Assembly: GCA_029263415.1 (NCBI GenBank)
Contig: JAJCXN010000044.1
Coordinates: 124,001-188,000, forward strand
DNA length: 64,000 nt
Reading direction: 5' to 3'
DNA from: Acidobacteriota bacterium
GTDB lineage: Bacteria > Acidobacteriota > Thermoanaerobaculia > Multivoradales > Multivoraceae
In this document: positions 3,481 to 48,688 of the stretch, piece by piece
Layout: each line of letters starts with the position of its first letter
Numbering within the stretch: position 1 is the first letter of the stretch
Notes under the pieces: generated by a model
What the model saw: only the letters and a program-made list of their open reading frames with translations
The model's database searches: none
Told to the model about the DNA's origin: nothing
Position numbers and translations under genes: made by a program

Positions 3481-3524
3481 GGCGTTCGGGGTGTTGCGTT
3501 GGTAGTTCGCGCTCTATCGAGCTT

Positions 3525-4541: not shown

Positions 4542-4592
4542 AGCAAAGCAGCCAACGGCTCTTCACTCGTCTAGCGTGAGAGATGAAGTGAC

Positions 4593-5849: not shown

Positions 5850-5864
5850 CGAACACCCTTAAGC

Positions 5865-7133: not shown

Positions 7134-7206
7134 CGTTGGCTCGTTGACCTCATCGTCTCTTTAGCTCGGTAGTTCTCATTTGCAGGTGACGGATCGTCGG
7201 TTGGCT

Positions 7207-9478: not shown

Positions 9479-9645
9479 GCCCAGGTTTCGGGGTCGTTCA
9501 AACATTGCAGCATCGTACACAAAACTCATTTGACTCCTTCGGCGCAGCTCTTTGCTCTGAGTCGCCTGAGCCTGAACACTTCCCCCTCCTGCCAGCGGAT
9601 CGCTTCCCACCTAACCTCGGATCAGAGGGACCGGCCGGTTCTTCC

Positions 9646-11387: not shown

Positions 11388-11431
11388 CTGAAACCGCCTT
11401 GGCCGTTCAATGCTCGAACTTCAGCCTTCGA

Positions 11432-12427: not shown

Positions 12428-12434
12428 TGTTGGA

Positions 12435-28944: not shown

Positions 28945-30837
28945 CTAGACCTCGAGTCCGACCTCGCGCATCAGCTCGAGCGCATTACTCTTGGTCACCA
29001 CGCCTTGGCGCAGGTGGTAGTCAAAGTGGATGCGCCCATCCTCGATGGTGTCGATGAAGTGCACATTGTCCAAACGACGCTGTGCGGGCTCCGCCGCCTC
29101 AGGCCCAGACACGTCAGCTCCAGACACGCCAGAACCGGTATCGAAGTCGTCCTCCTCGGTGAGACGCGCCAGCACCAAGTCGTGGGTGGTCACCATCACT
29201 ACTGCTTCTTCTTGAAGCAGCGCCTTTACCACCGCCGCTGCACCGATACGGCGATCGTGCGAGTTGGTGCCATGCAGAATCTCGTCCAGCAAGCACAGCG
29301 CCGGCAGCTCGGCTCGTGCAAGATCGAGCACGCTGCGCAGGCGCTTGATCTCGGCGTAGAACTTGGAACTGCCCTCTTGCAGCGAATCCTGGATGCGGAT
29401 CGAGGCCCCTACGCTCAGTGGGGTGGTGTTCATCGAACGAGCAACTACCGGCGCGCCCGCCCAGGCAAGCACCATGTTCAAGCCACAAGCACGCAAGAAG
29501 GTGCTCTTGCCCGACATGTTCGAGCCGCTGATGACTAGAGCCTGTGGGCGGTCCCTGTCGCCCACGGCCAACGCGATGTCATTGCGGATGCAATCGACGG
29601 GCGCGATCAAGGGATGGCCCAGCGCGGTTGCTTCAAACCTGGTGTTGGCCAAGTCAAGAATGACGGGGAACACCACGCCTTGATCCTCTCCTATGTTCAG
29701 ACCTCGCTCGTAAGCGAACGTACCGAGACAGGCCGCCGCTTCCAGCTCACCGACCACCGCTAACCACCGCGCAACGCGAGTGCCCCAGCGTGCTCTCCAA
29801 TCCTCGACCACAAATGCAATCTGCGATGTCCACAGAAGTAAGGCCCCGAACGGGGCAAAGAACGCGTTCCGCCGAGATTCGAGGCGCTCCACCCACTTCT
29901 GTAGTTTGTGGATCTCTTCCCCTGGACGTGCGCCATCCAGAGTCAGCTCCTCGCTGCGCGCGATCAACCACGGAGCATCGAAGGTTTCTCGCTCGAGCCG
30001 ATCCATCAACTCAGCGATCACCTGCAAGTCACGACCAGTCTGCTCGACGCCTTGAACCACTTTCGCGATCCGTTGACGCAGGATCAAGAACAGCGCGAAC
30101 GACACCACCAGCGACAGCCCCAGCGGCCTACCAGTGGTCAAGCCCGCAAGCCAAAGGCTGGAGCAGGTCAGGTTGCTCAGCGCCGCCAACGCCAGAGCCC
30201 AACGCAGTCTCGCAACACCGCGCAAGATCGGCTCACCCGTGGCCCATGCCGCCAGCCGATCGGGGTCAAGTTCAGAGCGGACCTCGGAGCCCAGGGTCGC
30301 CATTTCCTCGCGCAACTCCCCGCGATCCATGAGTTCTGCCACTGCAGGTTGGCGTGCTTTAACCTCATCTACGTGGGCCGGCGTCAGCAACCACTGCGCC
30401 AAGGTTTCCTCCCCGGCGCGAGTGCGAGTCTGATTGAGCAGGTGATAGAGCGAACCTGAGCCCAGCACGTCGAGGTCTGCAGCATAGAGATGGTCGGCCG
30501 AAACGAATCGACTTCCGTCATCGCTTGGAGCCTCGCGCCAGCGCTCTTCGATGCGATCAATGCCGCTTTGGAAGAACTGACAGGCTTGCTCCGCTCGACG
30601 CTTCTTGCGTAGCACGCGCTCGTGCACGGTAATCAGAGCGAGAAATGTGATCACCGGTACCGCCACCCAGATCAGCGAGAAGCTCTGGCGCTGCACCGCC
30701 ATCCAGGCGAAGGCGAAAATCAGAATCATCACCGCCAAACGCAGGATCGAAATCCTGAACTCAGTGGTGCTCCAACGCTTCTGAGTGGCGGTGCGATCGG
30801 CTAAGTTCTGACGATAACGATCAAGCGGGCTAGTCAA
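28945..30837 (-). CDS. Membrane-anchored MutS-family ATPase
   Basis: A 630-residue protein with the MutS ATPase core at its C-terminus: Walker A ISGSNMSGKSTFLR, the N-2 motif-like YAEIKRLRSV, Walker B LCLLDEILHGTNS and VMVTTHDL. The MutS core (lever/clamp-like, about 130-430) is recognisable through LNQTRTRAGEETLAQWLLTP. No mismatch-recognition domain is present. Two hydrophobic pairs lie near residues 30-70 and 210-255, so the protein is probably fixed in the membrane, unlike MutS and MutS2. Such proteins occur in many bacteria without known function. A variable Ser/Gly-rich insert (DVSG repeats) lies after Walker B. It is separated by 102 bases from the acylase gene. Confidence 0.85.
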   Translation of the reverse strand: MTSPLDRYRQNLADRTATQKRWSTTEFRISILRLAVMILIFAFAWMAVQRQSFSLIWVAVPVITFLALITVHERVLRKKRRAEQACQFFQSGIDRIEERWREAPSDDGSRFVSADHLYAADLDVLGSGSLYHLLNQTRTRAGEETLAQWLLTPAHVDEVKARQPAVAELMDRGELREEMATLGSEVRSELDPDRLAAWATGEPILRGVARLRWALALAALSNLTCSSLWLAGLTTGRPLGLSLVVSFALFLILRQRIAKVVQGVEQTGRDLQVIAELMDRLERETFDAPWLIARSEELTLDGARPGEEIHKLQKWVERLESRRNAFFAPFGALLLWTSQIAFVVEDWRARWGTRVARWLAVVGELEAAACLGTFAYERGLNIGEDQGVVFPVILDLANTRFEATALGHPLIAPVDCIRNDIALAVGDRDRPQALVISGSNMSGKSTFLRACGLNMVLAWAGAPVVARSMNTTPLSVGASIRIQDSLQEGSSKFYAEIKRLRSVLDLARAELPALCLLDEILHGTNSHDRRIGAAAVVKALLQEEAVVMVTTHDLVLARLTEEDDFDTGSGVSGADVSGPEAAEPAQRRLDNVHFIDTIEDGRIHFDYHLRQGVVTKSNALELMREVGLEV

Positions 30838-30959
30838 GATTCGACCTTTCTTGGGCTTGCGAACTCAAACGCCGCGACGCCGAGGATGATTCTAGTTGGA
30901 TCGAATCGCGCTGGTCTCCGATTCGTGGCATCTTCCCCAAACGCAATCTGCTCCACAAA

Positions 30960-32162
30960 ATGGCCCCGCCAGCCCTCAATCCAACCAGCCTCGCTGGCAA
31001 CCTGTGGAAGCTCAACGCGGTCCGAGCTCTGTTCTGGACGCACTTCATCAGCTCTGTCCTGATTCCGTTCTACCGTGACTGGGGTGGCCTGTCGCTGCAG
31101 TTGATCCTGGCGGTCAATGCCTGGTTCATGGTCTGGAACTTCCTTCTCGAAATCCCCACAGGAACTGTCGCCGACATCTGGGGACGCAAGGCGTCGCTGG
31201 TCTTAGGTTGCGCACTCGGCATTATCGCGGCACTGGTCTACATCAGCGCCCCTTCGCTACCGCGATTCCTGTTCGCAGAAGTGCTTTTCGCCGCATCGTT
31301 CACCCTGATGTCGGGCGCTGATGAAGCTCTGCTGTTTGACACCCTCTTGGCCCTCGACCGCACCTCGGAAGCCAACACTCGCTATGCCAAGCTAGCAACC
31401 TTCCAGCAAGTTGGCATCGTCAGCGGAGCGTTGTTGGGCAGCGTCATCCTGTTTTACCTAGGCCCCCGCGCACCGCTCGGCCTGCAGACCATCCCCATGG
31501 CCGCCGCAGCCCTCATCGCCATGAGCCTGGTCGAACCGAGGCACATTCAAGAGCAGGCCGAACGCCCAACGTTCCGCTCGGTCCTCACCGTAGGTGTCCG
31601 CAGCTTCCTCTCATCGCCACCACTCATCCGCCTTTCGGCGCACGTCACCGTGTTCGCCAGCATCGGCTGGATGATCATCTGGCTCTATCAACCGATCATC
31701 GAACGTTCCGGCATGCCCGTGCTGTACTTCGGCTTCGTTCATGCCGGCATGAGCCTCGCCCAGATCCTGTTCCTAGCCAACGCGCACCGACTCGAACGGC
31801 GGCTCGGCTCCCGGCGACGTTTGCTGTTCGTTGGTCCAGCTATCACAGGTCTTTGTTTCATCGCACTCACCCAAACCCGCAGCCTAGCCGTGGTCGTCAC
31901 CTTGGTCATCCTGATCGCAGCTTTCGGTCTAACCCGACCTCCTCTTTTCAGTGGCCACCTCAACCACCACATCACCAGCTCCAGCCACCGCGCAACAATC
32001 CTGTCCACTGTCGCCATGTTCCGAACCGCCACCATCGCTATTGCGAACCTCTTCATCGGCGCCCTCACCACCATCTCCATCGACACCACTCTCGTCGCCT
32101 TAGCAGCGGCAACGCTCCTCCTCTTCGTCCTCCCCCTCTACGACACGGACCTGTCCACCTGA
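30960..32162 (+). CDS. MFS transporter
   Basis: A 400-residue inner-membrane permease with about 12 hydrophobic segments. The loop after TM2 reads EIPTGTVADIWGRKASL, the MFS signature motif A region (G-x-x-aD-x-x-GRK). The first residues are polar and Asn/Leu-rich. Substrate not recognisable; drug or metabolite export is typical of the subgroup. It is divergent to the MutS-like gene with 122 bases between the starts, and is followed by the PadR gene in the same direction after 117 bases. Confidence 0.9.
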   Translation: MAPPALNPTSLAGNLWKLNAVRALFWTHFISSVLIPFYRDWGGLSLQLILAVNAWFMVWNFLLEIPTGTVADIWGRKASLVLGCALGIIAALVYISAPSLPRFLFAEVLFAASFTLMSGADEALLFDTLLALDRTSEANTRYAKLATFQQVGIVSGALLGSVILFYLGPRAPLGLQTIPMAAAALIAMSLVEPRHIQEQAERPTFRSVLTVGVRSFLSSPPLIRLSAHVTVFASIGWMIIWLYQPIIERSGMPVLYFGFVHAGMSLAQILFLANAHRLERRLGSRRRLLFVGPAITGLCFIALTQTRSLAVVVTLVILIAAFGLTRPPLFSGHLNHHITSSSHRATILSTVAMFRTATIAIANLFIGALTTISIDTTLVALAAATLLLFVLPLYDTDLST

Positions 32163-32214
32163 ACTCGTTGCAAACCAAAGGCACTTCCACTCCGATCCCG
32201 CCACCACTGCGATG

Positions 32215-32242
32215 TTGGCGAGTCATGTCAATTTCATATCAT
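32215..32242 (+). promoter_or_regulatory. Candidate sigma-70-type promoter for the PadR-ADOP pair
   Basis: TTGGCG (32215-32220), 16 bases, TATCAT (32237-32242), in the only clearly AT-rich patch of the gap, 38 bases upstream of the PadR start. The spacer contains ATGTCAATTTCATATCAT, a possible operator for autoregulation, as PadR proteins often repress their own gene. Match to the consensus is moderate. Confidence 0.4.
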
Positions 32243-32279
32243 TGCGCAACTAAATAGCTCTCCAGTCGTATCGGACATC

Positions 32280-32618
32280 ATGAACAAAGATACGTTGGCG
32301 CAACTTGAACACTTGGTCTTGCTGTCGGTCCTCCGCCTCGGGAAGGCCGCCTATGGGGTCTTGATCTTGAAGGAGCTTGCTGACACAGCCCATCGGCCGA
32401 CCAATCGTGCGGCCGTCTACGTTGCTCTTCGGCGCCTGGATGAACGGGGCCTACTGCGAAGCAAGCTCGCCGAACCGACGGCTCGGCGCGGTGGCCGGGC
32501 AAAACGCTTCTACTCCGTCACCGCTGATGGAATCGAGGCGCTGCGATCTCAACAGGCCATGCTCCAACGCATGTGGGCGGGGCTCGAAAGCCCACTAGGC
32601 TCGGGAGGCATGCCGTGA
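32280..32618 (+). CDS. PadR-family transcriptional regulator
   Basis: A 112-residue single-domain regulator. The winged helix includes LVLLSVLRLGKAAYGVLILKEL, AAVYVALRRLDERGLL and the wing segment GGRAKRFYSVTADGIEAL, all typical of PadR. It lies 34 bases before the large permease gene. Pairing of a PadR regulator with an ADOP permease is a known arrangement in Acidobacteriota and Gemmatimonadota, so it probably controls that gene. Confidence 0.93.
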   Translation: MNKDTLAQLEHLVLLSVLRLGKAAYGVLILKELADTAHRPTNRAAVYVALRRLDERGLLRSKLAEPTARRGGRAKRFYSVTADGIEALRSQQAMLQRMWAGLESPLGSGGMP

Positions 32619-32652
32619 GCTGGATCAACAGCGGCCCTCGCAGGCTGGCGTC

Positions 32653-35415
32653 ATGAGCCGCCCGAGCAAGGAAGCCGATCGGAGCCTGCTGCTGCGCATC
32701 GCCGCCGCGATTCTCGGTCCCGAGATGGCGGACGAGGTGCTCGGCGATCTCTACCAAGAGGCACCTCCAGCCAGTTCGCGCCGGTCGCGGTTGGCACTCT
32801 CGCTGCGAGCGGTCCATCTGGCGATCGCGATTCGCGCCCAGCGATCTCCAGCTCCCGTCGAGGCCGCACAAACCGTAGGTGGCGATCAACATTCACAGCG
32901 GGCCCCTAAGGGCTCGCAAACTTGGGCGGTCATCGGCCAAGAACTCATACACGCTTGGCTACGACTGGTTCGTGCTCCAGCTTATTCAGCTCTATCTCTG
33001 CTCACTGTCGCCATCGGAATCTGTGGAGCGGTGGCAATCCTGTCGGTGGTCAACGGTGTGTTGCTGCGGCCGTTAAATTTCGACGCACCCGAAGAGTTGA
33101 TGGCGGTTTTCACCACCGAGCGCGATGGCAACGAGCTGCGCAACCCTTCATCGCCAGCAGACTTTCTCGATTGGAAGCGCGCGAGCGGCGACATCGCCAC
33201 GCTGGCCGCAGCCACCTACTGGGCGCCGGGCATCGGCCCCATCGACAATCCTGATTCGAGCGTGGAGAAGATCGTAGGCCTGCGTGTGACCGTCGGCCTG
33301 CTCAGCATGCTCGGCGTTGAGCCCATTCTCGGGCGGCTGTTCTCGCCGCTTTCACAAGAATTCTCCTCCACCGCAGAGCCCGCCCTTCACGACCGTACTG
33401 ACACACGGTCTGCGGTGGTGTCGTGGCACACATGGCAAAACCGCCTGGGTGGGCGTAGCGATGTCATCGGCAAGGAGATCATGCTCGACGGCACACGTCA
33501 TGTGGTGATTGGGGTCATGCCCAAGTCATTTGCGTTTCCCCCATTTTGGGCGACTGACGCTGAGCTCTGGGCGCCGCTCGAACTGGGGGTCGACCCGACC
33601 CGTGGCGGTCGTTTTCTGCGAGTGTTCGCGCGCCTCGCGTCAGGGGCTTCCATGAGCGCACTTGGTGAACGCCTCGCTACAGTCCATCAGGACATCAGTG
33701 TTGAGCATCCAGAGACCCATACTGGTACCGGAGTCGCGGTGGAGCGGCTCAAAGAGCCGATGGTCTCGGGCTCTCGGGCCCCATTGCTCATGCTTGCGAC
33801 GGGCTCGCTCATCTTGTTGGCCCTAATGGCAACTAACCTAGCCGGTCTGCTGTTCACCAAAGGTATCGAGCGACGCGGGATGCTCGCGACCCAGCTCGCC
33901 TTAGGCGCCAGTCGGAGAAGGCTAACGCTAGGGATCATGTTCGAGAGCCTAATACTCATGATTGGTGGAGCCATCGCGGGTACCGCTCTGGCCCTAGTGG
34001 CGCTAAAGGCATTTCAGTCGTTGGCCGCCGACTCCGTTCCTCGGCTAGCGGGAGTCGTCATCGAGCCTTCCACATGGCTCATTTCGATCGCCACGATGGC
34101 CCTACTTGGGCTTGCCATCGGCTTCTTTCCCGGCCTCCGACTTGTCTTCGAGAGCGAGAATCGACTGGCGCAGGGCGCGGCTCGGTTCCCGAGAGCGGAA
34201 CGATCACGGCGACTGATCGTCGCGGCCGAGATCGCCCTCACCACCGGCCTGCTCCTACTGGCAGGTTTCGTAGGTCAGAGCTTTCAACGACTTGCAGGCC
34301 AGGATCTGGGTTTCGAGATCAACCACGTCACCACACTAGGCCTCGACGTGCCTGACGACCGTTTGGATGCAGCCGGGTCGATGGTTGAAGGAGATCAGAA
34401 CATCGCGCCGCAACTGGACCACCTCATCGACGAACTTGCTGCACTTCCGGCTGTCTCCAGCGTGGGCGCGATCAATCACCTGCCGTTGGCTGGAGACCTA
34501 TGGCGCGGCAAGATGTTTGCGGTCGGCTTCTCTGCTCCTGATGACGATGTGCGCACCACTCTGCGTGTCGCGACCCCAGGGTACGCCGACGTGATGGCGT
34601 TGCGGCTCCTTGCAGGCCGCTTCTTCGAGCCTTCAGACCGGTCCGACTCAGAACGCGTGGTAGTGATCAACCGAGCACTCGCTGAAGCTCTATGGCCAAA
34701 GCGAAGTCGAGAGGGAACGGTCGTGGGCTCGATGATCGCGCAAGACAATCTGGATGACGATTCGCCGAGAGCCAAGGTGATTGGAATCATCGACAACGTC
34801 AAGCAGTCCTTGCTTGAAGAACCAGCTGCGCCCGAGATCTACTTCCCGTTCTCCCAGAACCCATACTCATTCGCTCGAAGCGCAACCGTAGTCCTTCGTG
34901 GCAATCAAGGTGGAGTCGTTGATGCAACCGTTCTCATGGAGTTCGTTACCAAGGCCATACCCGGCGTCGCACTCGGGAAACCTCAGTCCCTGCAACACAT
35001 CGTGGCGGGCGACCTGAGTGACGAGCGTGCCAGAACATTGGTCTTGCTGTTGTTCGCCGCTGTCGCCTCTCTCTTGGCCACGACTGGATTGTTCGGCGTC
35101 CTGGCATTTTCGGCAGCACAGCGTCGCCGAGAGTTTGGACTGAGACTCGCCCTAGGAAGCCCAAGACCGGAAGTGGCGTGGCTGATTCTCAGAGAGGGTG
35201 TCGCAGTTGCGGCCGGAGGATTGATCGTCGGGGCCGCAGCCGCCCTTGCTCTGGGCTCGTGGCTTCAAACCGTCTTGTATGAAACGAGTTTAAGCGAGCC
35301 AGCGGTCTGGGGAGGTGTGCTCCTGACCGTTACGGCCCTAGCCATAGCAGGCAGTCTGATTCCGGCCTATCGAGCAAGTCGGACCGATCCTACGAGTGCC
35401 CTCAATCGATACTGA
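32653..35415 (+). CDS. ADOP-type ABC permease (FtsX/MacB-like, no ATPase domain)
   Basis: A 920-residue membrane protein. The N-terminal 90 residues form the ADOP prefix (AAILGPEMADEVLGDLYQE), followed by a first TM helix at about 105-140 and a MacB-type periplasmic domain (about 145-370), three TM helices including LLMLATGSLILLALMATNLAGL, a second periplasmic domain, and three C-terminal TM helices ending in RASRTDPTSALNRY. This is the duplicated MacB/FtsX architecture of acidobacterial duplicated orphan permeases, which lack a neighbouring ATPase gene, as here. Function is not known in detail; export or envelope signalling is inferred. The PadR regulator precedes it. Confidence 0.92.
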   Translation: MSRPSKEADRSLLLRIAAAILGPEMADEVLGDLYQEAPPASSRRSRLALSLRAVHLAIAIRAQRSPAPVEAAQTVGGDQHSQRAPKGSQTWAVIGQELIHAWLRLVRAPAYSALSLLTVAIGICGAVAILSVVNGVLLRPLNFDAPEELMAVFTTERDGNELRNPSSPADFLDWKRASGDIATLAAATYWAPGIGPIDNPDSSVEKIVGLRVTVGLLSMLGVEPILGRLFSPLSQEFSSTAEPALHDRTDTRSAVVSWHTWQNRLGGRSDVIGKEIMLDGTRHVVIGVMPKSFAFPPFWATDAELWAPLELGVDPTRGGRFLRVFARLASGASMSALGERLATVHQDISVEHPETHTGTGVAVERLKEPMVSGSRAPLLMLATGSLILLALMATNLAGLLFTKGIERRGMLATQLALGASRRRLTLGIMFESLILMIGGAIAGTALALVALKAFQSLAADSVPRLAGVVIEPSTWLISIATMALLGLAIGFFPGLRLVFESENRLAQGAARFPRAERSRRLIVAAEIALTTGLLLLAGFVGQSFQRLAGQDLGFEINHVTTLGLDVPDDRLDAAGSMVEGDQNIAPQLDHLIDELAALPAVSSVGAINHLPLAGDLWRGKMFAVGFSAPDDDVRTTLRVATPGYADVMALRLLAGRFFEPSDRSDSERVVVINRALAEALWPKRSREGTVVGSMIAQDNLDDDSPRAKVIGIIDNVKQSLLEEPAAPEIYFPFSQNPYSFARSATVVLRGNQGGVVDATVLMEFVTKAIPGVALGKPQSLQHIVAGDLSDERARTLVLLLFAAVASLLATTGLFGVLAFSAAQRRREFGLRLALGSPRPEVAWLILREGVAVAAGGLIVGAAAALALGSWLQTVLYETSLSEPAVWGGVLLTVTALAIAGSLIPAYRASRTDPTSALNRY

Positions 35416-35802
35416 CGGTGGCATGCGTCACAGCAAGATCGGCGGAGGCTTCGGAAGCCGTTCGGCCCGCCCAACCCTCTTAGCGGCCACGCGAGAGAGC
35501 AAAGCTCTCAAGCCAAACCATCGGCGATGAGGAGAGCAAAACGAACCTCATCGCCTCTCCCCCCAACCAAGGAGTTGGCCAACGCGCCCCAACTTCAACA
35601 CCCCGCTCAACCACGCCCGATCGACCAACGCCGCCACGACCGCACCACTAGCCGTGCCAAGCAGATCGAAGCCAGCGGCGCAACCGCCTCCCGCAAGCAC
35701 GATCTACCCCCCAAGTTCACCCCAACCAGTCCAACCAGTCCAACCAGTCCAACCATGGAACCTTCGCTCAACCACCCCGCCCACGCCACCAACACCACCC
35801 AA
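35416..35802. other. Convergent intergenic region with hairpins and a 9-base tandem repeat
   Basis: No gene is supported between the permease stop and the stop of the sigma-54-activator-like gene. It contains GGCTTC-G-GAAGCC (35447-35459), GAGAGC-AAA-GCTCTC (35495-35509), either of which may terminate the permease transcript, and the tandem repeat at 35722-35754. Base composition is C-rich on the plus strand. Long open frames across it continue antisense into the next gene and show no family resemblance. Confidence 0.5.
35722..35754. repeat. 9-base tandem repeat, 3.7 copies
   Basis: Three exact copies of CCAACCAGT and six bases of a fourth in a non-coding convergent gap. Confidence 0.9.
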
Positions 35803-36726
35803 CTACGGAATCCCGTACCGCCTGCGCTTATCCCACAACGTCTTCCGCGACACCCCCAACAACTCCGCCGCCCTCCCTTGGTGCCCTCCCGTGAACCGCA
35901 ACGCCCCCACGATCGCCTCAGCCTCCAACTCCGCAATCGACCGCGGACGCTCTTGTTCTAAGACTCTCGGCTTCTGCGTGACCAGCTCCCCGTTCTCGTG
36001 CATCACCACCGCGCGCTCCAAGGTGTTGCCCAACTCTCGCAGGTTGCCGGGCCAGCTGTGCGCCAGCATCCACTCCCTCGATCCTTGGCTCAGCACCAGG
36101 TTCGTCTTGGCGTAGCGAACGCACGCATCGCGGAGCATCGCGTCGATCAACGGTCCGATGTCACCGCGACGCACACGTAAGCTCGGCAGAGCGAACGACA
36201 GCACTTCTAGTCGATAGTAGAGATCTTCTCTGAACGATCCGTTTCGCAAACGCTCAGCAAGCTCATTGGAAGCGATCGAAAGAAACCGTACTTGCGCATC
36301 GCGCTCCTTGCCTCCGAGCGGAGCAAAACGGTTCTCGGCCAACAACCGCAGGAGTTTCGGCTGCAGCTGCGCCGGTATCTCCTCGATTCGGTCGAGCAGC
36401 AGGGTTCCGCCATGCGCTCGTGCCACTAGCCCCTGGCGCGACGACTCAGCACCGGTGAACGCTCCTCGCGAATAGCCAAACAGCTCGCCTTCAAACAGCG
36501 AAGCCGGGATCAGACCAACGTCCGCCTCAACCAGAGAGGTCTGTGCACTCGCGTGACTGAGCGCTCGGGCCAAGGTGGTCCGTCCGGTGCCCGCTTCACC
36601 GCGCAGAAGAATCGGGGCCGAACTGCGAGCCGCCCGTACCAGTTGGGCGCGCATGGGCCGCAACGATGGCTGCGTCTCGAGAAAGACGTCAAGAGCGCTT
36701 AGATCTTGATCGGCTGCCTCCGTCAT
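35803..36726 (-). CDS. Sigma-54-activator-like AAA protein with Fis-type helix-turn-helix and altered Walker motifs
   Basis: A 307-residue protein with the AAA domain of bacterial enhancer-binding proteins and a C-terminal Fis-like DNA-binding helix (GGHQGRAAELLGVSRKTLWDKRRRYG). The sigma-54-contacting loop GAFTGA (88-93) is intact inside LFGYSRGAFTGAESS, and the arginine-finger region REDLYYRLEVL is kept. Two catalytic positions differ: Walker A is GEAGTGRT with Arg 49 in place of Lys, and Walker B is LLLDRIEE with Arg 113 where Glu is expected. There is no N-terminal receiver or sensory domain. It begins 34 bases after the NadD-RsfS gene. ATPase activity is doubtful. Confidence 0.88.
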   Translation of the reverse strand: MTEAADQDLSALDVFLETQPSLRPMRAQLVRAARSSAPILLRGEAGTGRTTLARALSHASAQTSLVEADVGLIPASLFEGELFGYSRGAFTGAESSRQGLVARAHGGTLLLDRIEEIPAQLQPKLLRLLAENRFAPLGGKERDAQVRFLSIASNELAERLRNGSFREDLYYRLEVLSFALPSLRVRRGDIGPLIDAMLRDACVRYAKTNLVLSQGSREWMLAHSWPGNLRELGNTLERAVVMHENGELVTQKPRVLEQERPRSIAELEAEAIVGALRFTGGHQGRAAELLGVSRKTLWDKRRRYGIP

Positions 36727-36759
36727 CCGCAGCCCTCCCTGCTGAGTCCGAATCGTTGC

Positions 36760-38049
36760 CTATTGAGCCTGAGGCGCGGCGCCGGACTCGGCTCCGTTGT
36801 CTAGGCTTGCTTCATCCAGGTTTGCTGCGTCCGGGTTGGCTGCGTCCGGGTTGGCTGCGCCACCAGTAGGAGCGTCAGGCCTCGGCGGCTCCTCAGCGTA
36901 CAGCGATCTCGGCACTCGCGGGGCATCGTCCCACAGCCGCTCTAGACGATAGAAGTCTCGTGTTTGAGGATCGAAGACGTGCACAATCAAGTGCCCATAG
37001 TCCACCAGAATCCAGTTCCCACGACGCTCGCCTTCTACATGAAGCGCGCGTTCCCCAACGTCACGAAGGGCCCGTTGAATCCCCTTGGAGATCGCATCGA
37101 CTTGACGATCACTATTGCCGCTACAAACGATGAAGTAGTCAGCGAAACCACAGACTTCACCCACCTGCAGCACCCGAAGGTCGACCGCTTGTTTGTCCAG
37201 CGCGGTTCGCGCCGCTAGAGCAACTTCAGGGGGTAGAGGAGCAAGAGTGGGTTTAGCCTCTTCCTTTCGGACGCTTTCAGTATCGGTGCGGTCGGCGGCA
37301 GCTGGCGTGGTGTTCAACGTTGATTCACTCGTGGTTTGGACTGCCGCAGTTCCGCAAGAGGCAGTCTGGACTGCCGCAGGTCCGTACAGGGCATGTGTTT
37401 CGATAAAGCTTAGCACCGGCGCTGACACCCACTCGGGTGGCACCGGTTCGCCCGCGGCCAGGCGACGGCGAATCTCGGTGGACGAGATATCGCAGTTGGG
37501 CTCGGTCAGAAGAAGATGTTGGCGTTCGGGATGTTGAGTCAGCACCGCTTGAACCGCGCGTGGTAGAGCCTCCTGTTCCAGCGACCATCCGGGTCGAGCC
37601 AGCACAGCGATGTCCCAACCTGCAACGATCGCCTCCCACTCCTTCCACTTGGCAAGGTCCTGGTAGGAATCTGCCCCGATGATCAACACGAACTCAACCA
37701 GCGGCGATTCGACACTCAGCGCGCGCAAGGTATCCACCGTGAACACACGCTCATCCGTGATCTCGTCATCGAGCACCAGCAATCCCTCGATCTCGGCAAC
37801 TGCCAACTGCGCCATTTCCAAGCGCAGTGGCGCATCAGCCTGGCGCACGCCGTCCTTGTGCGGCGGAAACGCGGTCGGCAACAACACAACTTGATCGAGC
37901 CTGGCGACCTCGAGCGCGGCCATCGCGGGTTCAATGTGACCGACGTGAATCGGGTCGAACGAGCCTCCATAGACGCCAACGCGTGCGCCTGCCGGAAACT
38001 CCGGGCGCATCAGACGGACCTGCGGCTCTGATCTGTTGTCAGCTGACAC
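36760..38049 (-). CDS. NadD-RsfS fusion: nicotinate-nucleotide adenylyltransferase plus ribosomal silencing factor
   Basis: A 429-residue two-domain protein. Residues 20-225 are NadD, with GGSFDPIHVGH (28-38), LPTAFPPHKDG and the C-terminal ISSTEIRRRLAAGEPV; this enzyme forms nicotinate adenine dinucleotide. After a linker of about 45 residues containing an imperfect repeat (AAVQT...), residues about 270-385 form RsfS, with DYFIVCSGNSDRQVDAI and WILVDYGHLIVHVF, which binds L14 and blocks subunit joining. A C-terminal low-complexity tail has NPDAA repeats. nadD and rsfS are often neighbours; here they are one continuous frame with no stop or frameshift. It follows obg by three bases. Confidence 0.93.
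   Translation of the reverse strand: MSADNRSEPQVRLMRPEFPAGARVGVYGGSFDPIHVGHIEPAMAALEVARLDQVVLLPTAFPPHKDGVRQADAPLRLEMAQLAVAEIEGLLVLDDEITDERVFTVDTLRALSVESPLVEFVLIIGADSYQDLAKWKEWEAIVAGWDIAVLARPGWSLEQEALPRAVQAVLTQHPERQHLLLTEPNCDISSTEIRRRLAAGEPVPPEWVSAPVLSFIETHALYGPAAVQTASCGTAAVQTTSESTLNTTPAAADRTDTESVRKEEAKPTLAPLPPEVALAARTALDKQAVDLRVLQVGEVCGFADYFIVCSGNSDRQVDAISKGIQRALRDVGERALHVEGERRGNWILVDYGHLIVHVFDPQTRDFYRLERLWDDAPRVPRSLYAEEPPRPDAPTGGAANPDAANPDAANLDEASLDNGAESGAAPQAQ
36809..36858. repeat. 15-base tandem repeat in the 3' end of the nadD-rsfS gene
   Basis: Three copies (two identical) of GCTGCGTCCGGGTTG and a fourth partial, encoding NPDAA repeats in the C-terminal tail of the fusion protein. In frame, as the unit is a multiple of three. 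Confidence 0.9.
37337..37396. repeat. 30-base imperfect direct repeat in the NadD-RsfS linker
   Basis: Two copies beginning TGGACTGCCGCAG, period 30, encoding two versions of an AAVQT-containing decapeptide between the NadD and RsfS domains. Suggests the linker grew by duplication. Confidence 0.8.
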
Positions 38050-38052
38050 GGT

Positions 38053-39201
38053 CTACTCGTCGGGCAATTCGATGTCGTCGAGGGTGAGCCGTCGGATCGG
38101 TTTCTCTACGGTTGCGGCCTCTGGCTGTTCGGGCTCGGAGCCTGAACTCCCCGACTCCGCGGACCTCGACGAGGGTTTGTTGATCAACGGAAAAGCTGGT
38201 GTCTCTTCGAGCAGGTGCCCTAGCTTGGCAACCATCGGATCAGTGCCTTCGTGGGTTACCGAGCTGATCTCGAAGTACGGCAATCCTCGTTGTCCCGCAG
38301 CCTCTTTGAGAGCTTTGGAGCGCTCGTCGTCGCGCACGTCGATCTTGGTTCCTACAATCACCCGGGGACGCTGTAGGAGACTCTCATCGAACGTCTCGAG
38401 TTCTCGTTCGATCACATCGAGCTCGACATCCGCAGGCGCTTCGCCCATGGAGAGATCCACCAGGTGCACCAGAACGCGGCAGCGCTCAACGTGGCGTAGA
38501 AACCGATGGCCCAAACCCGCGCCTTGCGACGCGCCCGCGATCAGTCCCGGCAGATCAGCAACCACAAAAGGCTCTTCCAAAACACCGCGAGCGACCACCC
38601 CAAGCTGGGGCACAAGAGTGGTGAACGGATAGTCCGCGATCTTTGGCGTAGCCGCGGTGATCGAACTGATCATGGTTGACTTGCCCGCATTGGGCAAACC
38701 GACCACACCAACATCAGCCAACAACTTCAACTCGCACCGGATCCAGCGCTCTTCGCCCTCTTCGCCGGGTTGGGCGAACCGTGGCGCTTGGCGGGTGGGT
38801 GTTGCAAAGCGTGCGTTGCCACGGCCGCCCTGCCCACCGCGGGCAACGTACAAACGAGCATCCGCGACCGTGACCTCACCCAGCATCTCGGAGTTGTTCT
38901 CGTCGTCCGCAAAGACAACGGTACCGAGCGGCACCTTGATCACAAGATCTTCGCCACTACGACCAGTGCGCAGCGAGCCCTCGCCGTGCATTCCGCGTTC
39001 GGCACGCAATAGGGTGCGATGCCTCAGGTGATAGAGCGTGTTGGTGTTCTGGGAACCCACAAACACGACAGAGCCACCCGCGCCGCCGTCGCCGCCAGCT
39101 GGGCCGCCCCGTGGAACGAACTTCTCGCGCCGAAAAGCAACTGAACCGCTACCGCCATGCCCGGCCTCTGCTCGCACACGAACTTCGTCGATGAACTGGA
39201 T
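38053..39201 (-). CDS. obgE: GTPase Obg, with ATC at the expected start codon
   Basis: Ribosome-associated GTPase for 50S assembly. The Obg fold is clear: FRREKFVPRGGPAGGDGGAGG, then the G domain with GLPNAGKSTMIS (G1), DLPGLIAGASQGAGLG (G3) and GTKIDV (G4), then a short charged tail. The conserved family start is M-(Q)FIDEV; the codons here read ATC CAG TTC ATC GAC GAA GTT, so conservation runs to an ATC at 39201. No in-frame ATG, GTG or TTG lies between the upstream stop (39253-39255) and this point. Options are an ATC start (382 residues), a CTG five codons upstream (39216), or a GTG at 39177 that removes eight conserved residues. It follows rpmA after about 420 bases. Confidence 0.9.
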   Translation of the reverse strand: MQFIDEVRVRAEAGHGGSGSVAFRREKFVPRGGPAGGDGGAGGSVVFVGSQNTNTLYHLRHRTLLRAERGMHGEGSLRTGRSGEDLVIKVPLGTVVFADDENNSEMLGEVTVADARLYVARGGQGGRGNARFATPTRQAPRFAQPGEEGEERWIRCELKLLADVGVVGLPNAGKSTMISSITAATPKIADYPFTTLVPQLGVVARGVLEEPFVVADLPGLIAGASQGAGLGHRFLRHVERCRVLVHLVDLSMGEAPADVELDVIERELETFDESLLQRPRVIVGTKIDVRDDERSKALKEAAGQRGLPYFEISSVTHEGTDPMVAKLGHLLEETPAFPLINKPSSRSAESGSSGSEPEQPEAATVEKPIRRLTLDDIELPDE

Positions 39202-39622
39202 TGTGGAACCCCGCAGTAAACCACGGCTCGATCCCCTCGGAGGCGGCTCGCCTCAAGCGCCTGAAGCGCCTCGCGAGTCTCCTGAGGGGAAAGCTAACGT
39301 GGACCAAAAAGAAGTCGATCCGCCACCTTGGACACGCCGGTCCGACCATGGCATTGATGTCGCACCATCACGTGGTAATTCACGGGGGCAACCAATGCAT
39401 GCTAACCCGGCGCCGAGGGCTCAGACCGTGCTGAACGAGCGAAGCACACCGCCGGGGTTCGGTCGCGAGACTCAAACCGGCCAAACTGGTGCCTGCGGTC
39501 ATCCAACCAGCACGTCGCTGCCCAGTTGCCTAGTTGCCCAGTTGCCCAGTCCGATTGCCCATCCGACTATCCGGCCCTTGAACCACTCAGACCGTACTAG
39601 CCTGCGGGATCAGTCCGCGGGA
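39202..39622. other. Gap between rpmA and obg, with an 8-base tandem repeat
   Basis: Unusually long for the rpmA-obg junction; no gene is visible. It contains four copies of TTGCCCAG-like units (39518-39549) and a perfect hairpin GAGGCG-GCT-CGCCTC (39239-39253) about 40 bases upstream of the obg start on the minus strand. It may hold a separate obg promoter or a processing site. Confidence 0.5.
39518..39549. repeat. 8-base tandem repeat, four copies
   Basis: CTGCCCAG, TTGCCTAG, TTGCCCAG, TTGCCCAG in the rpmA-obg gap. Not coding. Confidence 0.85.
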
Positions 39623-39880
39623 CTAATCTGCAGGAACGACGCTAACGAACTTGCCGCGCCGACCGCGATCGCGGAACAGCACCGTGCCCGCGGCGCGCGC
39701 GTACAGGGTGTCGTCCCCGCCACGGCCAACGTTCTCACCAGGGAAGAACTTGGTGCCGCGTTGACGCACGATGATGGTGCCACCGGTGACAACCTCGCCA
39801 CCATAGGCCTTGACGCCTAGGTATTGGGGGTTGGAGTCGCGACCGTTCCGAGTAGAGCCTTGACCTTTTTTATGAGCCAT
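39623..39880 (-). CDS. rpmA: Large ribosomal subunit protein bL27
   Basis: An 85-residue ribosomal protein of the 50S subunit near the peptidyl transferase centre. It begins [16 protein letters not shown] and contains [23 protein letters not shown] and [15 protein letters not shown], all highly conserved in bL27. No N-terminal cleavable extension of the Firmicutes type is present. It lies 44 bases after rplU. Confidence 0.97.
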
Positions 39881-39924
39881 GAGATTGAGTTCCCTTGAAA
39901 GCCTATTGCTGAGGCGGACGGTGC

Positions 39925-40236
39925 CTAAGCGGAGATGGATTCGATCCTGATCCGTTGCAGATTCTGGCGATGACCTTGGGTGCGCTTGTAACCCTTGCGA
40001 CGCTTCTTCTTGAAGACCTTGATCTTCGCGGCGCGCACATTGGCAACGAGCGACCCAGAGACCGAAGCGCCTTCGAGCAGAGGAGTGCCGACCTTGAGGT
40101 CGTCGCCTTCGCCAACCAAGAGCACCTTGTCGAATGCCACGGAATCCGCGTCGGCATCAGCGAAGATCTCGACGTCGATAACGTCGCCTTGCTGCACGCG
40201 GTACTGTTTTCCACCGGTTTCGATGACAGCGAACAT
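39925..40236 (-). CDS. rplU: Large ribosomal subunit protein bL21
   Basis: A 103-residue 50S protein that binds 23S rRNA. The sequence from this [21 protein letters not shown], is the conserved bL21 start; [19 protein letters not shown] is the conserved basic C-terminal segment. AGGAG lies eight bases upstream (40245-40249 region) and confirms the start against the longer open frame. It is the first gene of rplU-rpmA-obg-nadD/rsfS. Confidence 0.97.
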
Positions 40237-40640
40237 GAGTTTGACTCCTACGCTCGACTCCCTAAGGAGGCCGAACGATCCGTATAAAAGCTGGTGTTTC
40301 TGAAGTTCGAGAGCCGACATCCAAAGGCCGCGCGTGGTCTAGAGGCGCACAGAACGCGGCACAATGGCCAAGCGTACAAACGCTTCTCGTAAGACAACTG
40401 TAAGAGGCAGAGCGCTTCAGAAGTTCGGGCTGTGCCACAGCTGTTCGGCGGCAACGCGGCACTCTGCAATGGATGCAGCGTCTCCGCAGTCGGCGAGCGC
40501 GAAATCGTAACACGGGGCTAGAGGTACCGGCAAGGCTAGGGCGTTCCGAAATTGCGGTCGTCCTGCATCGGCAAGATGGCGGGTCGGCGCCAGCCGGAAT
40601 GGCGCTAACCTATAGCTCATCATGTGTCAGGACCCAACCT
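40237..40640. other. Divergent region between rplU and the zinc-ribbon gene
   Basis: About 400 bases without a supported gene. On the minus strand a TTATAC-like -10 element (around 40290-40296) and the rplU ribosome binding site are visible, so the rplU operon promoter probably lies here. CTCC-TTA-GGGAG forms a small inverted repeat in the rplU leader at about 40257-40267. Confidence 0.4.
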
Positions 40641-40844
40641 ATGGCTAATGTCGGCCGCGTTACGTCAATTCCCGAGTTCTTGGTGTGCCTCGAGTGCGAA
40701 AGCCCCTGCTACAACTTCGAGTGGCGGCTAGGAACGATCAAAGAGATCCTCTGCCTGATCTGCGGCAACGAGGAGCCGGATGACTTCGCGCGTCAAGAGG
40801 ACATCGAAGCGATCGAGAGTCACTGGGAAAGCCACCGGAAGTAG
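40641..40844 (+). CDS. Small zinc-ribbon protein
   Basis: A 67-residue protein with two CxxC pairs, CLEC and CLIC, 23 residues apart, the geometry of a zinc ribbon, followed by an acidic helix (EEPDDFARQEDIEAIESHWESH). The open frame starts earlier (40473) but the upstream part is Arg-rich with no pattern; the chosen ATG begins MANVGRVTSIPEF directly before the ribbon. Role unknown. It converges with the histidine kinase gene. Confidence 0.65.
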   Translation: MANVGRVTSIPEFLVCLECESPCYNFEWRLGTIKEILCLICGNEEPDDFARQEDIEAIESHWESHRK

Positions 40845-40881
40845 GTGTTTCGAGCCCGCGCGGACCCGTCTAGGCTCGATC

Positions 40882-42279
40882 TCAGTCCCGGCCGAATCTG
40901 CTTTGTCCGGGCTTGGGCGCATCGTCTGTCAGGCGCGAACGATTCATCAGCTTCTGCACCCCGCTGCTCGGGACGTAGGCGGGCAGCTCGACCGTCACAG
41001 TGGTTCCAACTCCGAGTTCGCTATCGAGGTTCAGACCACCTCCGTGGCTGCGAACGACGCGCTCGACGATCGCAAGCCCAAGACCGGTCCCGCCCTTACG
41101 CCTGGAGTAGAAGATTTGGGTGGCTTGCTCGAGGTCTTCCTCGCTCATTCCCCGGCCGTTGTCGAGCACCTTGATCCGCACCGCATCTTCGTCGTGCTCA
41201 ATCACAAACTCAATCCACGCAGGCCGCTGCAGGCGCTCGGTCGCGTATGTGGCGTTCTGGGTCAGGTTCAACAGCATCTGGTGAATCTGATCGGGATCAA
41301 CAAAGACATCGGCACCCTCGCTTTGATCCTCGATCCGCACCTCCACGCCACTCGCCTCGAGGCCCCCGCCGACCACGTCGACCACGCGTTTCACTAGGTC
41401 GACCGCCTTTTGATGTTCCATCGCCATCGGGCGCGGACGCGCATAACTCAAGAACTCGGTGACCAGCCCCTCGAGCCGATCGATCTCCGCGCTGGTGATC
41501 TCGAGTAGCCTGCGACCCGAGCCCTGAGGGTTCACCCGCGCGATCTCTTCGTCGAGCATCTGCATGTTGAGGCTCAACGAGTTGAGCGGACTGCGAATCT
41601 CGTGCGCAAGACCCGCAGCGAGCGTGCCGATGTAGGCCATCCGTTCGGTGTGAGCCACCTGTTCCAATTCTTCGCGACTGGCGGCGAAGTTGCGCCACAC
41701 GATCCAGGAAGCGATTCCAAACAAGGCCAGGATGAACGCCAACATCGACGTGGCCCTGCCCACCACAGACGTGCGCACTGCTGCTACCAGACGCGGCCCC
41801 TCTCGCGGATCCAAGTGCGCAGCGAGACTGCCCAATTCGCCCACTGCCACCCGCACAACGTTCTGCTCCAGAAGATCCGAGACCTCGACCTCGTCTAGGT
41901 CGGGTTGCTGCCAACCGCTAGGCGCCGTGTAAATCTTGAAGCCATCCGCGTCGAACACTTCCACCGCTTGCACCGCTTGATGCTCCAACAACACCGTTTC
42001 AAGCACCGGCAGGACCGTGCGCGACGTGGTCAAGGTCAAGAGCAGCCCCCTCTTGGGATTCTTGGCGACCTCCTCTTCGATGTAGTTCGCGACCCTTTGC
42101 GCTTTGCGGGTGACGTCTTGATCGAGCGCGACCAAGTCGCGCTCTGCGAGTGAGCGATAGAGCAACCAACCGAACACCGCCATCACCAGCAAGACAAGGC
42201 CCGCGAAGATCACTAGGGCATAGAGCTGACGGCGCGAGCGCAGCATGCCTTCGCGTGGTAGGTGTGCGTTGACTTCCAT
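40882..42279 (-). CDS. Sensor histidine kinase, membrane-bound
   Basis: A 465-residue kinase. Residues about 19-42 form the first TM helix, followed by a periplasmic sensor domain of about 140 residues and a second TM helix (TSMLAFILALFGIASWIVW). The cytoplasmic part has the H box LAHEIRSPLNSLSLN with the phospho-accepting His, N box NLTQNATYA, G1 DNGRGMSEED and G2 GGTGLGLAIVERV. No HAMP is obvious. There is no adjacent response regulator, so it is an orphan. The ATG at 42279 precedes the first TM helix at a normal distance; the longer frame upstream is not conserved. Confidence 0.92.
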   Translation of the reverse strand: MEVNAHLPREGMLRSRRQLYALVIFAGLVLLVMAVFGWLLYRSLAERDLVALDQDVTRKAQRVANYIEEEVAKNPKRGLLLTLTTSRTVLPVLETVLLEHQAVQAVEVFDADGFKIYTAPSGWQQPDLDEVEVSDLLEQNVVRVAVGELGSLAAHLDPREGPRLVAAVRTSVVGRATSMLAFILALFGIASWIVWRNFAASREELEQVAHTERMAYIGTLAAGLAHEIRSPLNSLSLNMQMLDEEIARVNPQGSGRRLLEITSAEIDRLEGLVTEFLSYARPRPMAMEHQKAVDLVKRVVDVVGGGLEASGVEVRIEDQSEGADVFVDPDQIHQMLLNLTQNATYATERLQRPAWIEFVIEHDEDAVRIKVLDNGRGMSEEDLEQATQIFYSRRKGGTGLGLAIVERVVRSHGGGLNLDSELGVGTTVTVELPAYVPSSGVQKLMNRSRLTDDAPKPGQSRFGRD

Positions 42280-42394
42280 AGCCTGCGACGATATCCGCTG
42301 AGGACAGGCTCCAGCGTCGTAACGCGGCCGATGCCCCGAACCAGACCCCTTCGTACGGGCGCGGACCTTCCGCTCAGCGATATGCTGAGGCCAC

Positions 42395-43981
42395 ATGAAG
42401 AAGTCAATAACACCGTTCGCCTGCCTGCTCTTACTGGTCCTGGGTGCCTGTACCCGCGAAACCAATCAGACTCCGTCTCGGGACCTGCTGATCGGCACAC
42501 CCACCACCTTCGAGAACGTCAATGAGCTGATCTCGTTGGGCAGCGCTTTCAACGCCACCGTGCTCCGCCAAATGTTCTTGTGGCTGGCCGACGAGTCACT
42601 GGACCCGAACAACGAGGGCCCTACCTTCGCCCCGCGCCTGGCTCGGTCATGGGCGTTCTCAGAAGACCGCACCGAGCTCACCTTCACCTTGCGCGACGAT
42701 GTGCGCTGGAGCGACGGCGTCGCGCTAACCGCTGAAGACGTTCGCTTCACCTGGCAAGCGCAGGTCTCCCCTGAGGTCGCATACCCCTATGCGGACATCA
42801 AAGACAACATCGAAGATGTCGAAGTCTTGTCTCCAACGGAAGTCCGCTTTCACTTCAGCCGCGCCTCGGCGGCCTCGATGGTCAATGCCATCGACGGCGG
42901 CATCCTGCCCAAGCACAAATGGTCGGCATTACCCTTCGACCAATGGCGCGAGCAGCCGCAATGGTTCCAGGAGAACCTGGTGACCAGCGGCGCGTTTCAG
43001 CTCGAAGCGTGGGAACCTCGCCAGCGTCTGGTGCTGAGCGCGAACCCTGACTACTACGAAGCAGATCTCCCTAAGCTCGATCGCGTTGTCTTCGTGAACC
43101 TCGAGGAAACCACGCTGAGACTCAACCAGTTGCTCGCTGGAGAGATCGATGTCCTGTACGGCATCAGTCCCAGTGGCGCGCCCAAGATTGAGGCTGATCC
43201 CAACCTCACTCTGCACACCTATCCGAGTCGGCAGTTCAGCTTCATCTTCTGGAACACCGAACGCCCCGTTTTCGACGACGCACGCACGCGGCGCGCGCTC
43301 GCTCACGGTGTGAATCGTCAACAGATCGTCGACACGCTGTGGGGCGACCTCGCGAATCCCCACGAGAGCCTGATCAGTAGCTGGCACTGGTCTCACACCC
43401 AGCGCGACCCGCTGCCCTACGATCCCGAACGGGCCCGAGCGCTGCTCGATGAGGCCGGCTGGACACGGACTGCAGACGGCACCAGGCAGCGCAACGGACT
43501 CCCGCTACGCTTCGAACTCACCACCAACCCCGGCAACAACGAGCGCTGGGATGCGATGCGCATGATCGCTGATGACTTAGAGGCTTTAGGCGTCACGGTC
43601 GAGAACCGGCGCATCGACTTCCAGCAACTCAACGCGCTCAACGCCAACCATGACTTCGACGCCACCTTGACCGCCTTTTCGATGGATACGTCCTTAGAGC
43701 TCGGCACGTTGCTGCATACCGAATCGATCGACAACGGGTACAACTTCGGCAGCTACTCGAATGCCGAGGCAGACCGGCACATTGAGGCGATCAGAGCCCT
43801 AACGGACATCGCCGACGCCACCGTGCACGTGCAAGCTATCGAAGACATCCTGCGCACCGAGCAGCCGTTCCTGTTCCTTTGGGAACCAATGCAGCTATTG
43901 GCTTCGAGCAACGACGTTGAGGTGATTACCGACCTGGTTGCACCGTTCTCCAACCTCCACCTGTGGTCTCGCACGCAGTAG
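42395..43981 (+). CDS. Peptide ABC transporter substrate-binding lipoprotein (SBP family 5)
   Basis: A 528-residue lipoprotein: signal sequence MKKSITPFACLLLLVLGAC with lipobox LGAC. The mature protein has the family signature region (ARSWAFSEDRTELTFTLRDDVRWSDG), VNRQQIVDTLWGD and the C-terminal EDILRTEQPFLFLWEP. It captures peptides or similar solutes for the two permeases encoded directly downstream. The ATPase subunits are not in the window. Confidence 0.93.
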   Translation: MKKSITPFACLLLLVLGACTRETNQTPSRDLLIGTPTTFENVNELISLGSAFNATVLRQMFLWLADESLDPNNEGPTFAPRLARSWAFSEDRTELTFTLRDDVRWSDGVALTAEDVRFTWQAQVSPEVAYPYADIKDNIEDVEVLSPTEVRFHFSRASAASMVNAIDGGILPKHKWSALPFDQWREQPQWFQENLVTSGAFQLEAWEPRQRLVLSANPDYYEADLPKLDRVVFVNLEETTLRLNQLLAGEIDVLYGISPSGAPKIEADPNLTLHTYPSRQFSFIFWNTERPVFDDARTRRALAHGVNRQQIVDTLWGDLANPHESLISSWHWSHTQRDPLPYDPERARALLDEAGWTRTADGTRQRNGLPLRFELTTNPGNNERWDAMRMIADDLEALGVTVENRRIDFQQLNALNANHDFDATLTAFSMDTSLELGTLLHTESIDNGYNFGSYSNAEADRHIEAIRALTDIADATVHVQAIEDILRTEQPFLFLWEPMQLLASSNDVEVITDLVAPFSNLHLWSRTQ

Positions 43982-44007
43982 CCGTTCGCTACGCTTGAGA
44001 GACTGAC

Positions 44008-44994
44008 ATGAAACGGATCCTCGCGACTCGACTGCTGAGCTCGTTGCTGGTGTTGTGGTTGGTGGTGACCCTGACATTTGTGGCGCTGCACGTAGCACCC
44101 GGAGATCCCGCCAGCACGATCCTCGACCCACGAGCGTCGCAAGATCAAATCGAACTGTTACGCGAGCACTACGGCTTCAATGACGGTTTGCTCTCACAGT
44201 ACGGAACCTGGATCTCGAACTGCATCCGAGGAGACCTAGGACTGTCCTTCCTCTACCAGCGTTCGGCAGCGAACGTCATCGGTTCCCATCTGTCAGCAAC
44301 GATACTCCTCGGTGGCTTCGCAACCTTGCTCGGCACCCTTTCTGGCCTAGGTCTAGGACTCCTCGCTGCCGTCAAACGAGGCCGACGAACGGACCTTGTA
44401 ATCCGACTTGTCGGCTTGGTCCTCTACGCCACGCCGACCTTCTGGTTGGGTTTGATGCTGGCGCTCTTATTCGCCGGCGGCGTGTGGAACTGGCTACCTT
44501 CAGCGGGAATGCTGTCACCACTCACTGCGCCCGGAGCGAGTCCGTGGCATCCAGCTCAGTGGATCGATCTGCTTCGCCACCTGCTGCTGCCTGGCTCCGT
44601 GCTGGCCGCGCCCTTGGCCGTTCAGATCTCCCGCCACGTGCGCTTCGGACTCGAAGCGCAGCTCGAGCTGGACTACGTCACCGCTGGTCGATCGATGGGT
44701 TTGAGCGAGCGCCGACTACTAATCCTCGCTTTACGCAACAGCATCGGTCCCTTGGTGCAAGTGCTGGGTGTGTGGATGCCGGTGCTGGTCAGTGGCGCCG
44801 TGGTCATCGAACAGGTGTTCTCTTGGCCAGGCTTGGGTGCGGTCGCAGTGAACGCGATTTCCGGGCGCGACTACCCGCTGGTGCTGGCGCTCACCCTGCT
44901 CACTGCGACGTGCGTGGTCCTGGCCAATCTGACGGCTGACCTGGTGCATGCTTGCCTTGACCCGCGTGTGCGCGCTGCTAAGGAGGCTCAATGA
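44008..44994 (+). CDS. ABC transporter permease, DppB type
   Basis: A 328-residue inner-membrane permease with about six TM helices. It begins with LLSSLLVLWLVVTLTFVALHVAPGDP, the DppB/OppB N-terminal signature, and contains the EAA loop (DYVTAGRSMGLSERRLLILALRNS) that docks to the ATPase. It follows the binding-protein gene after 26 bases and overlaps the next permease by four bases (ATGA). Confidence 0.95.
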   Translation: MKRILATRLLSSLLVLWLVVTLTFVALHVAPGDPASTILDPRASQDQIELLREHYGFNDGLLSQYGTWISNCIRGDLGLSFLYQRSAANVIGSHLSATILLGGFATLLGTLSGLGLGLLAAVKRGRRTDLVIRLVGLVLYATPTFWLGLMLALLFAGGVWNWLPSAGMLSPLTAPGASPWHPAQWIDLLRHLLLPGSVLAAPLAVQISRHVRFGLEAQLELDYVTAGRSMGLSERRLLILALRNSIGPLVQVLGVWMPVLVSGAVVIEQVFSWPGLGAVAVNAISGRDYPLVLALTLLTATCVVLANLTADLVHACLDPRVRAAKEAQ

Positions 44995-45983: not shown

Positions 45984-46024
45984 TTGCCAGCGGATCCCGT
46001 CCCTACTTTCACCTCGCATACAAA

Positions 46025-47152: not shown

Positions 47153-47153
47153 G

Positions 47154-48688
<1,535 letters not shown>

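Follow-up and report, generated by a model that had tools for sequence, protein, structure and literature searches.

A conserved enhancer-binding-protein relative with altered ATPase residues, encoded behind rsfS in Acidobacteriota

Our analysis suggests that a small enhancer-binding-protein-like (EBP-like) regulator from an Acidobacteriota bacterium probably controls genes without splitting ATP. Our preferred explanation, to which we give a probability of roughly 60%, is that it is a DNA-bound regulator that acts independently of hydrolysis and that descends from a working sigma-54 activator. We base this on its residues and their conservation, on synteny, on signs of selection, and on a predicted fold; from these we infer the lack of hydrolysis, as well as nucleotide binding, oligomerisation, the DNA target, and the direction of regulation.

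The regulator and its gene neighbourhood

The original prediction, made from the window (the whole stretch of 64,000 nucleotides that we analysed), was of an EBP-like AAA domain in which arginine replaces both the Walker A lysine and the Walker B glutamate. This is correct. We aligned the window protein and its clade to Escherichia coli PspF, which we use as the reference for residue numbering, and the two arginines are R49 and R113, the latter within the Walker B stretch TLLLDRIEE. With the PspF residue given first, the replacements are K42 to R49, E43 to T50, N64 to D69, E108 to R113, and R131 to P136 (the last number is carried over from E108, where the two numberings differ by 5), and T148-N149 of sensor I has become A152-S153. 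The protein retains D112, R166, R172, and the sensor II arginine (R230, PspF R227). It also retains GAFTGA (88-93) and an HTH, which were both said to be intact, and Pfam identifies the latter as HTH_8. Features are listed in Table 1.

Table 1. Positions in the window of the regulator, its motifs, and the genes of its presumed operon
Feature	Position	Strand	Basis
Stand-alone EBP-like AAA+ regulator, 307 aa, catalytically degenerate, ATG start	35803..36726	-	ORF and Pfam
Walker A GEAGTGRT, residues 43-50 (R49 = PspF K42)	36577..36600	-	alignment to PspF
D69 (PspF N64, glutamate-switch asparagine)	36520..36522	-	alignment to PspF
GAFTGA loop, residues 88-93	36448..36465	-	alignment to PspF
Walker B TLLLDR, residues 108-113 (D112 kept, R113 = PspF E108)	36388..36405	-	alignment
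P136 (PspF R131; L2 / pre-sensor I loop)	36319..36321	-	column counts
Arginine fingers, span R166-R172 (PspF R162, R168)	36211..36231	-	alignment
HTH_8 (Fis-type) DNA-binding domain, residues 264-304	35815..35937	-	Pfam
NadD-RsfS fused ORF, 429 aa, 33 nt upstream of the regulator	36760..38049	-	Pfam CTP_transf_like and RsfS
obg (GTPase ObgE)	38053..39177	-	over NCBIfam cut-off
rpmA (L27)	39623..39880	-	open frame, named by eye
rplU (L21), first gene of presumed operon	39925..40236	-	open frame, named by eye

The protein scores 156 bits against Sigma54_activat (PF00158; cut-off 20.2), 54 against AAA_lid_14, and 45 against HTH_8, and Pfam finds no N-terminal regulatory domain in its 307 residues. 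It has 25 matches in NCBIfam, none of them above the curated cut-off. An AlphaFold2 model, built from 41 aligned sequences, has a mean pLDDT of 93, and the PDB structures that it matches best are sigma-54 activators, including NtrC1, ZraR, FlrC, FleQ, and LuxO. Judging by the model, the AAA+ fold of EBPs is kept. In its architecture the protein resembles PspF and other EBPs that lack an N-terminal regulatory domain: an AAA+ sigma-54 domain and a Fis-type HTH make up about 300-325 amino acids, there is no receiver or sensor domain, and GAFTGA and the arginine fingers are present. Unlike PspF, it has replacements at K42, E108, N64, N149 of sensor I, and R131 alike, and its gene belongs to a ribosome-assembly operon.

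The gene order is rplU, rpmA, obg, nadD-rsfS, and then the regulator, which is last. A position after obg and rsfS had been noted before and is right; nadD and rsfS are a single fused ORF in the host genome. None of 52 related loci has this fusion, and it is either real or due to a base error at the junction. The setting is conserved: obg and nadD lie just upstream and on the same strand at 39 of 40 loci from the clade of the host order, and the remaining locus (L110) starts at a contig end. Elsewhere in the window, at 2464-14543 on the minus strand, is a cluster of mevalonate-pathway genes (HMG-CoA reductase, mevalonate kinase, diphosphomevalonate decarboxylase, and type 2 IPP isomerase) along with squalene synthase-like, hopene cyclase, HpnH, and HpnA genes; of these, HMG-CoA reductase, mevalonate kinase, and squalene synthase fall below the curated cut-off.

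Conservation within the host order

We searched for orthologues in 98 relatives and then in 148 genomes of the class Thermoanaerobaculia, and found 45. Of these, 44 belong to the host order, which is represented by 72 genomes, and the last is from G072, a genome of the class that lies outside this order. Across the 148 genomes, orthologues score at least 332 bits, even if they are fragments, and the next matches score at most 309. This gap, together with the trees, rules out a mix-up of paralogues, and an artefact of sequencing or of the gene model is ruled out by the recurrence of the same changes in 44 other genomes.

Among the 45 orthologues, the Walker A position is arginine in 43 and lysine in 2 (L031 and L061). 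The position of the Walker B glutamate is histidine in 34, arginine in 8, proline in 2, glutamine in 1, and glutamate in none, so the canonical pair of lysine and glutamate is absent. Canonical EBPs from the host genome and its relatives have both residues in 20 of 20 cases, a count that leaves out L017, which is itself degenerate. Conservation of this kind rules out that the changes arose by chance or decay. L017 (G000:C9:142464-142949) is a second degenerate EBP of the host genome, with arginine in Walker A, RN in place of DE, and no GAFTGA.

Four of the orthologues are fragments, and we used the other 41 for column counts. Aspartate replaces N64 in all 41, N149 of sensor I is absent from all 41, and proline replaces R131 in 40; R131 is present in all 34 linked sequences of other classes that are described below. 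E81 is retained in just 8 of the 41 and E97 in 4. The GAFTGA loop is nearly invariant (F in 41, T86 in 40, G87 in 40, A in 41), both arginine-finger positions are arginine in 41/41, the sensor II arginine is present in 38/41, and K42 is always replaced by a basic residue if it is not kept (41/41 basic). By comparison with PspF, it appears that the residues that bind nucleotide and neighbouring subunits are largely kept, and that those for hydrolysis and for coupling to the L1 loop are changed.

A change from lysine to arginine in Walker A can spare nucleotide binding yet spoil hydrolysis. The original prediction was that hydrolysis is lost; this would be a natural consequence of the replaced residues, and the changes are conserved in the orthologues. 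The changes at N64, sensor I, and R131 and their sharing across the order go beyond that prediction, as does the linkage to rsfS across the phylum. According to PMC4132715, the glutamate switch of PspF consists of E108 and N64, and the E108Q variant has under 1% of wild-type ATPase activity, binds ATP about 30-fold more tightly, and still engages the closed complex. PMC2745333 reports that R131A lowers the ATPase of PspF to below 0.1 per min and breaks the switch with E81 and E97.

The gene is under purifying selection: dN/dS is 0.045-0.43 across 23 within-genus pairs, and 51 columns of the 41-sequence alignment are invariant. Within the order clade, conservation is highest in residues 283-307, where the recognition helix lies. 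The mean top-residue frequency of this segment is 0.85, as compared to 0.74 for the AAA core, while paralogues show the reverse pattern (0.54 versus 0.67). Such conservation of the DNA-binding segment above the AAA+ core speaks for a regulator that is bound to DNA.

The other 28 genomes of the order gave no orthologue, and 21 of these make up the entire genus g2. Three g2 genomes (G001, G004, and G010) as well as G024 and G036 have obg and nadD with no EBP behind them. In five other genomes without an orthologue, a match to Obg is missing too, so the absence of the regulator from those five may reflect incomplete genomes. Absence of the orthologue goes with few EBP-like matches in g2 (6-9) but not in G024 (21).

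A family linked to rsfS across the phylum

The neighbourhoods of Obg in further family groups of the class also contain a diverged stand-alone EBP behind rsfS. A profile from six of these proteins found 43 in the class, and 43 of 43 lie directly after RsfS. With a mixed profile, 396 genomes of the phylum and additional fetched stretches yielded at least 34 linked sequences that do not belong to the class (12 of 15 and 22 of 36 loci); the true number may be higher, since only candidates with a suitable score and a short open frame were taken. We also considered 80 named loci that match the family profile. RsfS is nearby in 29 of them, of which 18 match the order clade and 11 are from Blastocatellia, Acidobacteriales, Acidobacteria, Terriglobia, or Vicinamibacteria (in L166, RsfS is 2.4 kb off). 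Within the same 80 loci, we found no RsfS near the EBP in Nitrospirae, Geobacter, or any other named locus from outside the Acidobacteriota. Two loci, L238 (f15) and L241 (f12), have no EBP behind rsfS and instead have genes that by eye are rlmH-like and DksA/TraR-like; in other groups, genes with these names (also by eye) come after the EBP.

These EBPs of other Acidobacteriota share with ours the site directly after rsfS, the length, and the domains, and all of them form one clade apart from paralogues. The support for this separation is 98 (SH-aLRT, starred) in a quick IQ-TREE tree of 63 rows and 92 and 93 in FastTree trees of 144 rows; the order clade is a single group in the 63-row tree (99, starred).

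We compared 118 full-length linked sequences (41 from the order clade, 43 from the class, and 34 from the phylum) to 26 paralogues. All 26 paralogues have both K42 and E108. Among linked sequences, E108 was kept in 33 and lost in 85, and K42 was kept in 79, with every loss inside the order clade. In other words, the 77 linked sequences from outside the order clade differ from it in that all have the Walker A lysine; 33 of them have the Walker B glutamate. G87 is replaced by aspartate (a GAFTDA type) in 38 of the 118, and these belong to sister lineages of the order clade. Other residues hardly vary in the linked set: the Walker B aspartate is kept in 118, R162 in 118, R168 in 117, and R227 in 115. 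Since 33 of 118 retain the glutamate and 20 combine it with K42 and G87, the family as a whole is, judging from these residues, not ATPase-dead.

On a FastTree tree with the trait columns removed, at least 10 changes are needed between glutamate and its absence, 3 for lysine, and 8 for G87; the 63-row IQ-TREE tree requires 8 for the glutamate. Such counts carry no direction, but loss rather than gain of the lysine and glutamate is the natural reading because all of the paralogues in the set have both. The ancestor was most likely a working sigma-54 activator. The sequences are most naturally read as an activator that came to lie behind rsfS early in the history of the phylum and whose need for ATP turnover has since been lost several times.

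We found no paper on an rsfS-linked EBP family, or a name for one, in a search that covered open-licence papers. The open-licence papers also gave none that deals together with sigma-54, enhancer binding, and RpoN in Acidobacteria, and, going by title and the start of the abstract among the matches listed, none on a transcription regulator tied to the rsfS-obg-nadD operon in Acidobacteriota.

Possible mechanisms and their implications

We propose that the window protein is the host order's member of an old family of stand-alone EBP-like proteins encoded directly after rsfS, in an rplU-rpmA-obg-nadD-rsfS operon. The Walker B glutamate would have been lost independently in several lineages, and the host order would also have lost the Walker A lysine (to arginine), sensor I, and the L1-L2 loop switch. 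The protein would still fold and assemble as an AAA+ module. It may still bind nucleotide, given the P-loop glycines, the basic residue at K42, the Walker B aspartate, the arginine fingers, and sensor II, but it would not turn it over. The conserved HTH would hold a fixed set of DNA sites and regulate them independently of hydrolysis. Perhaps these include its own operon, but that is only a guess from the position of the gene. Because the sigma-54 loop erodes in other lineages, the common denominator of the family would be DNA binding plus AAA+ assembly, which favours a DNA-bound regulator. Against this explanation, the GAFTGA loop is near-perfect in the order and would be superfluous for a purely sigma-54-independent regulator, two of the orthologues keep the lysine, and the own-operon target lacks support in the sequences.

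As to that target, we examined 350 bp upstream of rplU at 33 loci and found no dyads or 8-mers above shuffles (by simple counting, with bases shuffled within blocks of 30), so we rejected a binding site there. We also rejected a sigma-54 promoter before rplU: no site matched within 350 bp upstream, and by eye there is a sigma-70-like TTGACC / TGnTAnnnT pair. Across the window, the 14 sigma-54-like sites are no excess over the 12.7 expected, and Rfam has no match in window positions 30000-48000. At many loci of the order, a short inverted repeat lies between the promoter-like pair TTGACC / TGnTAnnnT and the ribosome-binding site (also by eye). The lack of a target site near the operon or in the window weighs against a DNA-bound regulator and also against one linked to sigma-54.

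Since the host order keeps GAFTGA intact, the protein may instead act at sigma-54 or within mixed rings. The protein might join hexamers of active EBPs, or dock on RNAP-sigma-54 via GAFTGA, and so tune or block activation without any hydrolysis of its own, in the dominant-negative manner that the original prediction raised. In favour of this, both arginine fingers are kept, rpoN, whose presence the original prediction left to be checked, is encoded by the host genome (G000:C9:316958-317434, E 2.3e-65) and by 138 of the 148 class genomes, and the host encodes 16 further EBP-like proteins (at least 115 bits). Furthermore, PMC4132715 describes hydrolysis-poor subunits of PspF that still engage the closed complex and are able to form part of mixed rings. 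We nevertheless consider this scenario to be on the unlikely side. The residues that move L1 with the nucleotide state (N64, E108, and R131) have all changed, PMC2745333 reports no stable interaction of the R131A variant with sigma-54, G87 has become aspartate in the 38 relatives mentioned above, and no sigma-54 site was found near the operon.

It seems quite improbable that other residues stand in for the lysine and glutamate, so that slow hydrolysis persists and the protein is still a sigma-54 activator. The conserved basic residue at K42, the Walker B aspartate, and sensor II would fit such a cryptic ATPase, as would G057, whose orthologue (L031) combines a Walker A lysine with a Walker B arginine. 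Yet histidine or arginine occupies the catalytic position in 42 of 45 orthologues, and N64, sensor I, and R131 have changed along with K42 and E108. That the gene is merely decaying, without a function, is hardly credible, even though it is missing from 28 genomes of the order including all of g2: there is no internal stop among the matches listed, and the dN/dS ratios, the invariant columns, and the conserved synteny led us to reject decay.

Pairing between two of the changed residues is an idea that the linked set brings up. The position of N64 is an acid (aspartate) in all 60 linked sequences with histidine or arginine at E108, as compared to 13 of the 25 with other replacements, where both counts ignore kinship. 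D69 and R113 might thus pair in place of the asparagine-glutamate switch, an idea backed by this count alone. Taken further, the protein could be a nucleotide-locked platform in which an Asp-Arg/His pair replaces the Asn-Glu switch, and which still docks on sigma-54 or on other EBPs via GAFTGA, so that growth genes are controlled with no turnover of ATP; the family would then be an Acidobacteriota-wide, operon-tied regulator that repeatedly sheds its ATPase. We think that this is unlikely.

Other EBPs also act outside the classical mechanism of ATP plus sigma-54. FleQ, which binds c-di-GMP and whose AAA+ chains are among the PDB matches of our model, uses the EBP fold outside the classical route as well as within it, and it retains its Walker motifs. 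VpsR and the NtrC proteins of Rhodobacter and Caulobacter work with sigma-70 and have no intact GAFTGA, according to PMC10274813; similarly, PMC3162934 lists TyrR, DhaR, and HupR as lacking an intact GAFTGA. The window protein does not show the loss of this loop, which is the mark of sigma-70-type EBPs. The order clade is instead their mirror image: it keeps GAFTGA and loses the ATPase residues.

Known natural EBPs that depart from the classical mechanism include ones without the sigma-54 loop; a conserved family in which the loop stays and the ATPase goes would allow a test of what an AAA+ ring with GAFTGA does without hydrolysis. The protein is also a candidate transcription regulator whose gene location ties it to ribosome assembly (obg), ribosome silencing (rsfS), and NAD synthesis (nadD). 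Finally, the repeated losses within a single operon-linked lineage amount to a natural mutagenesis series.
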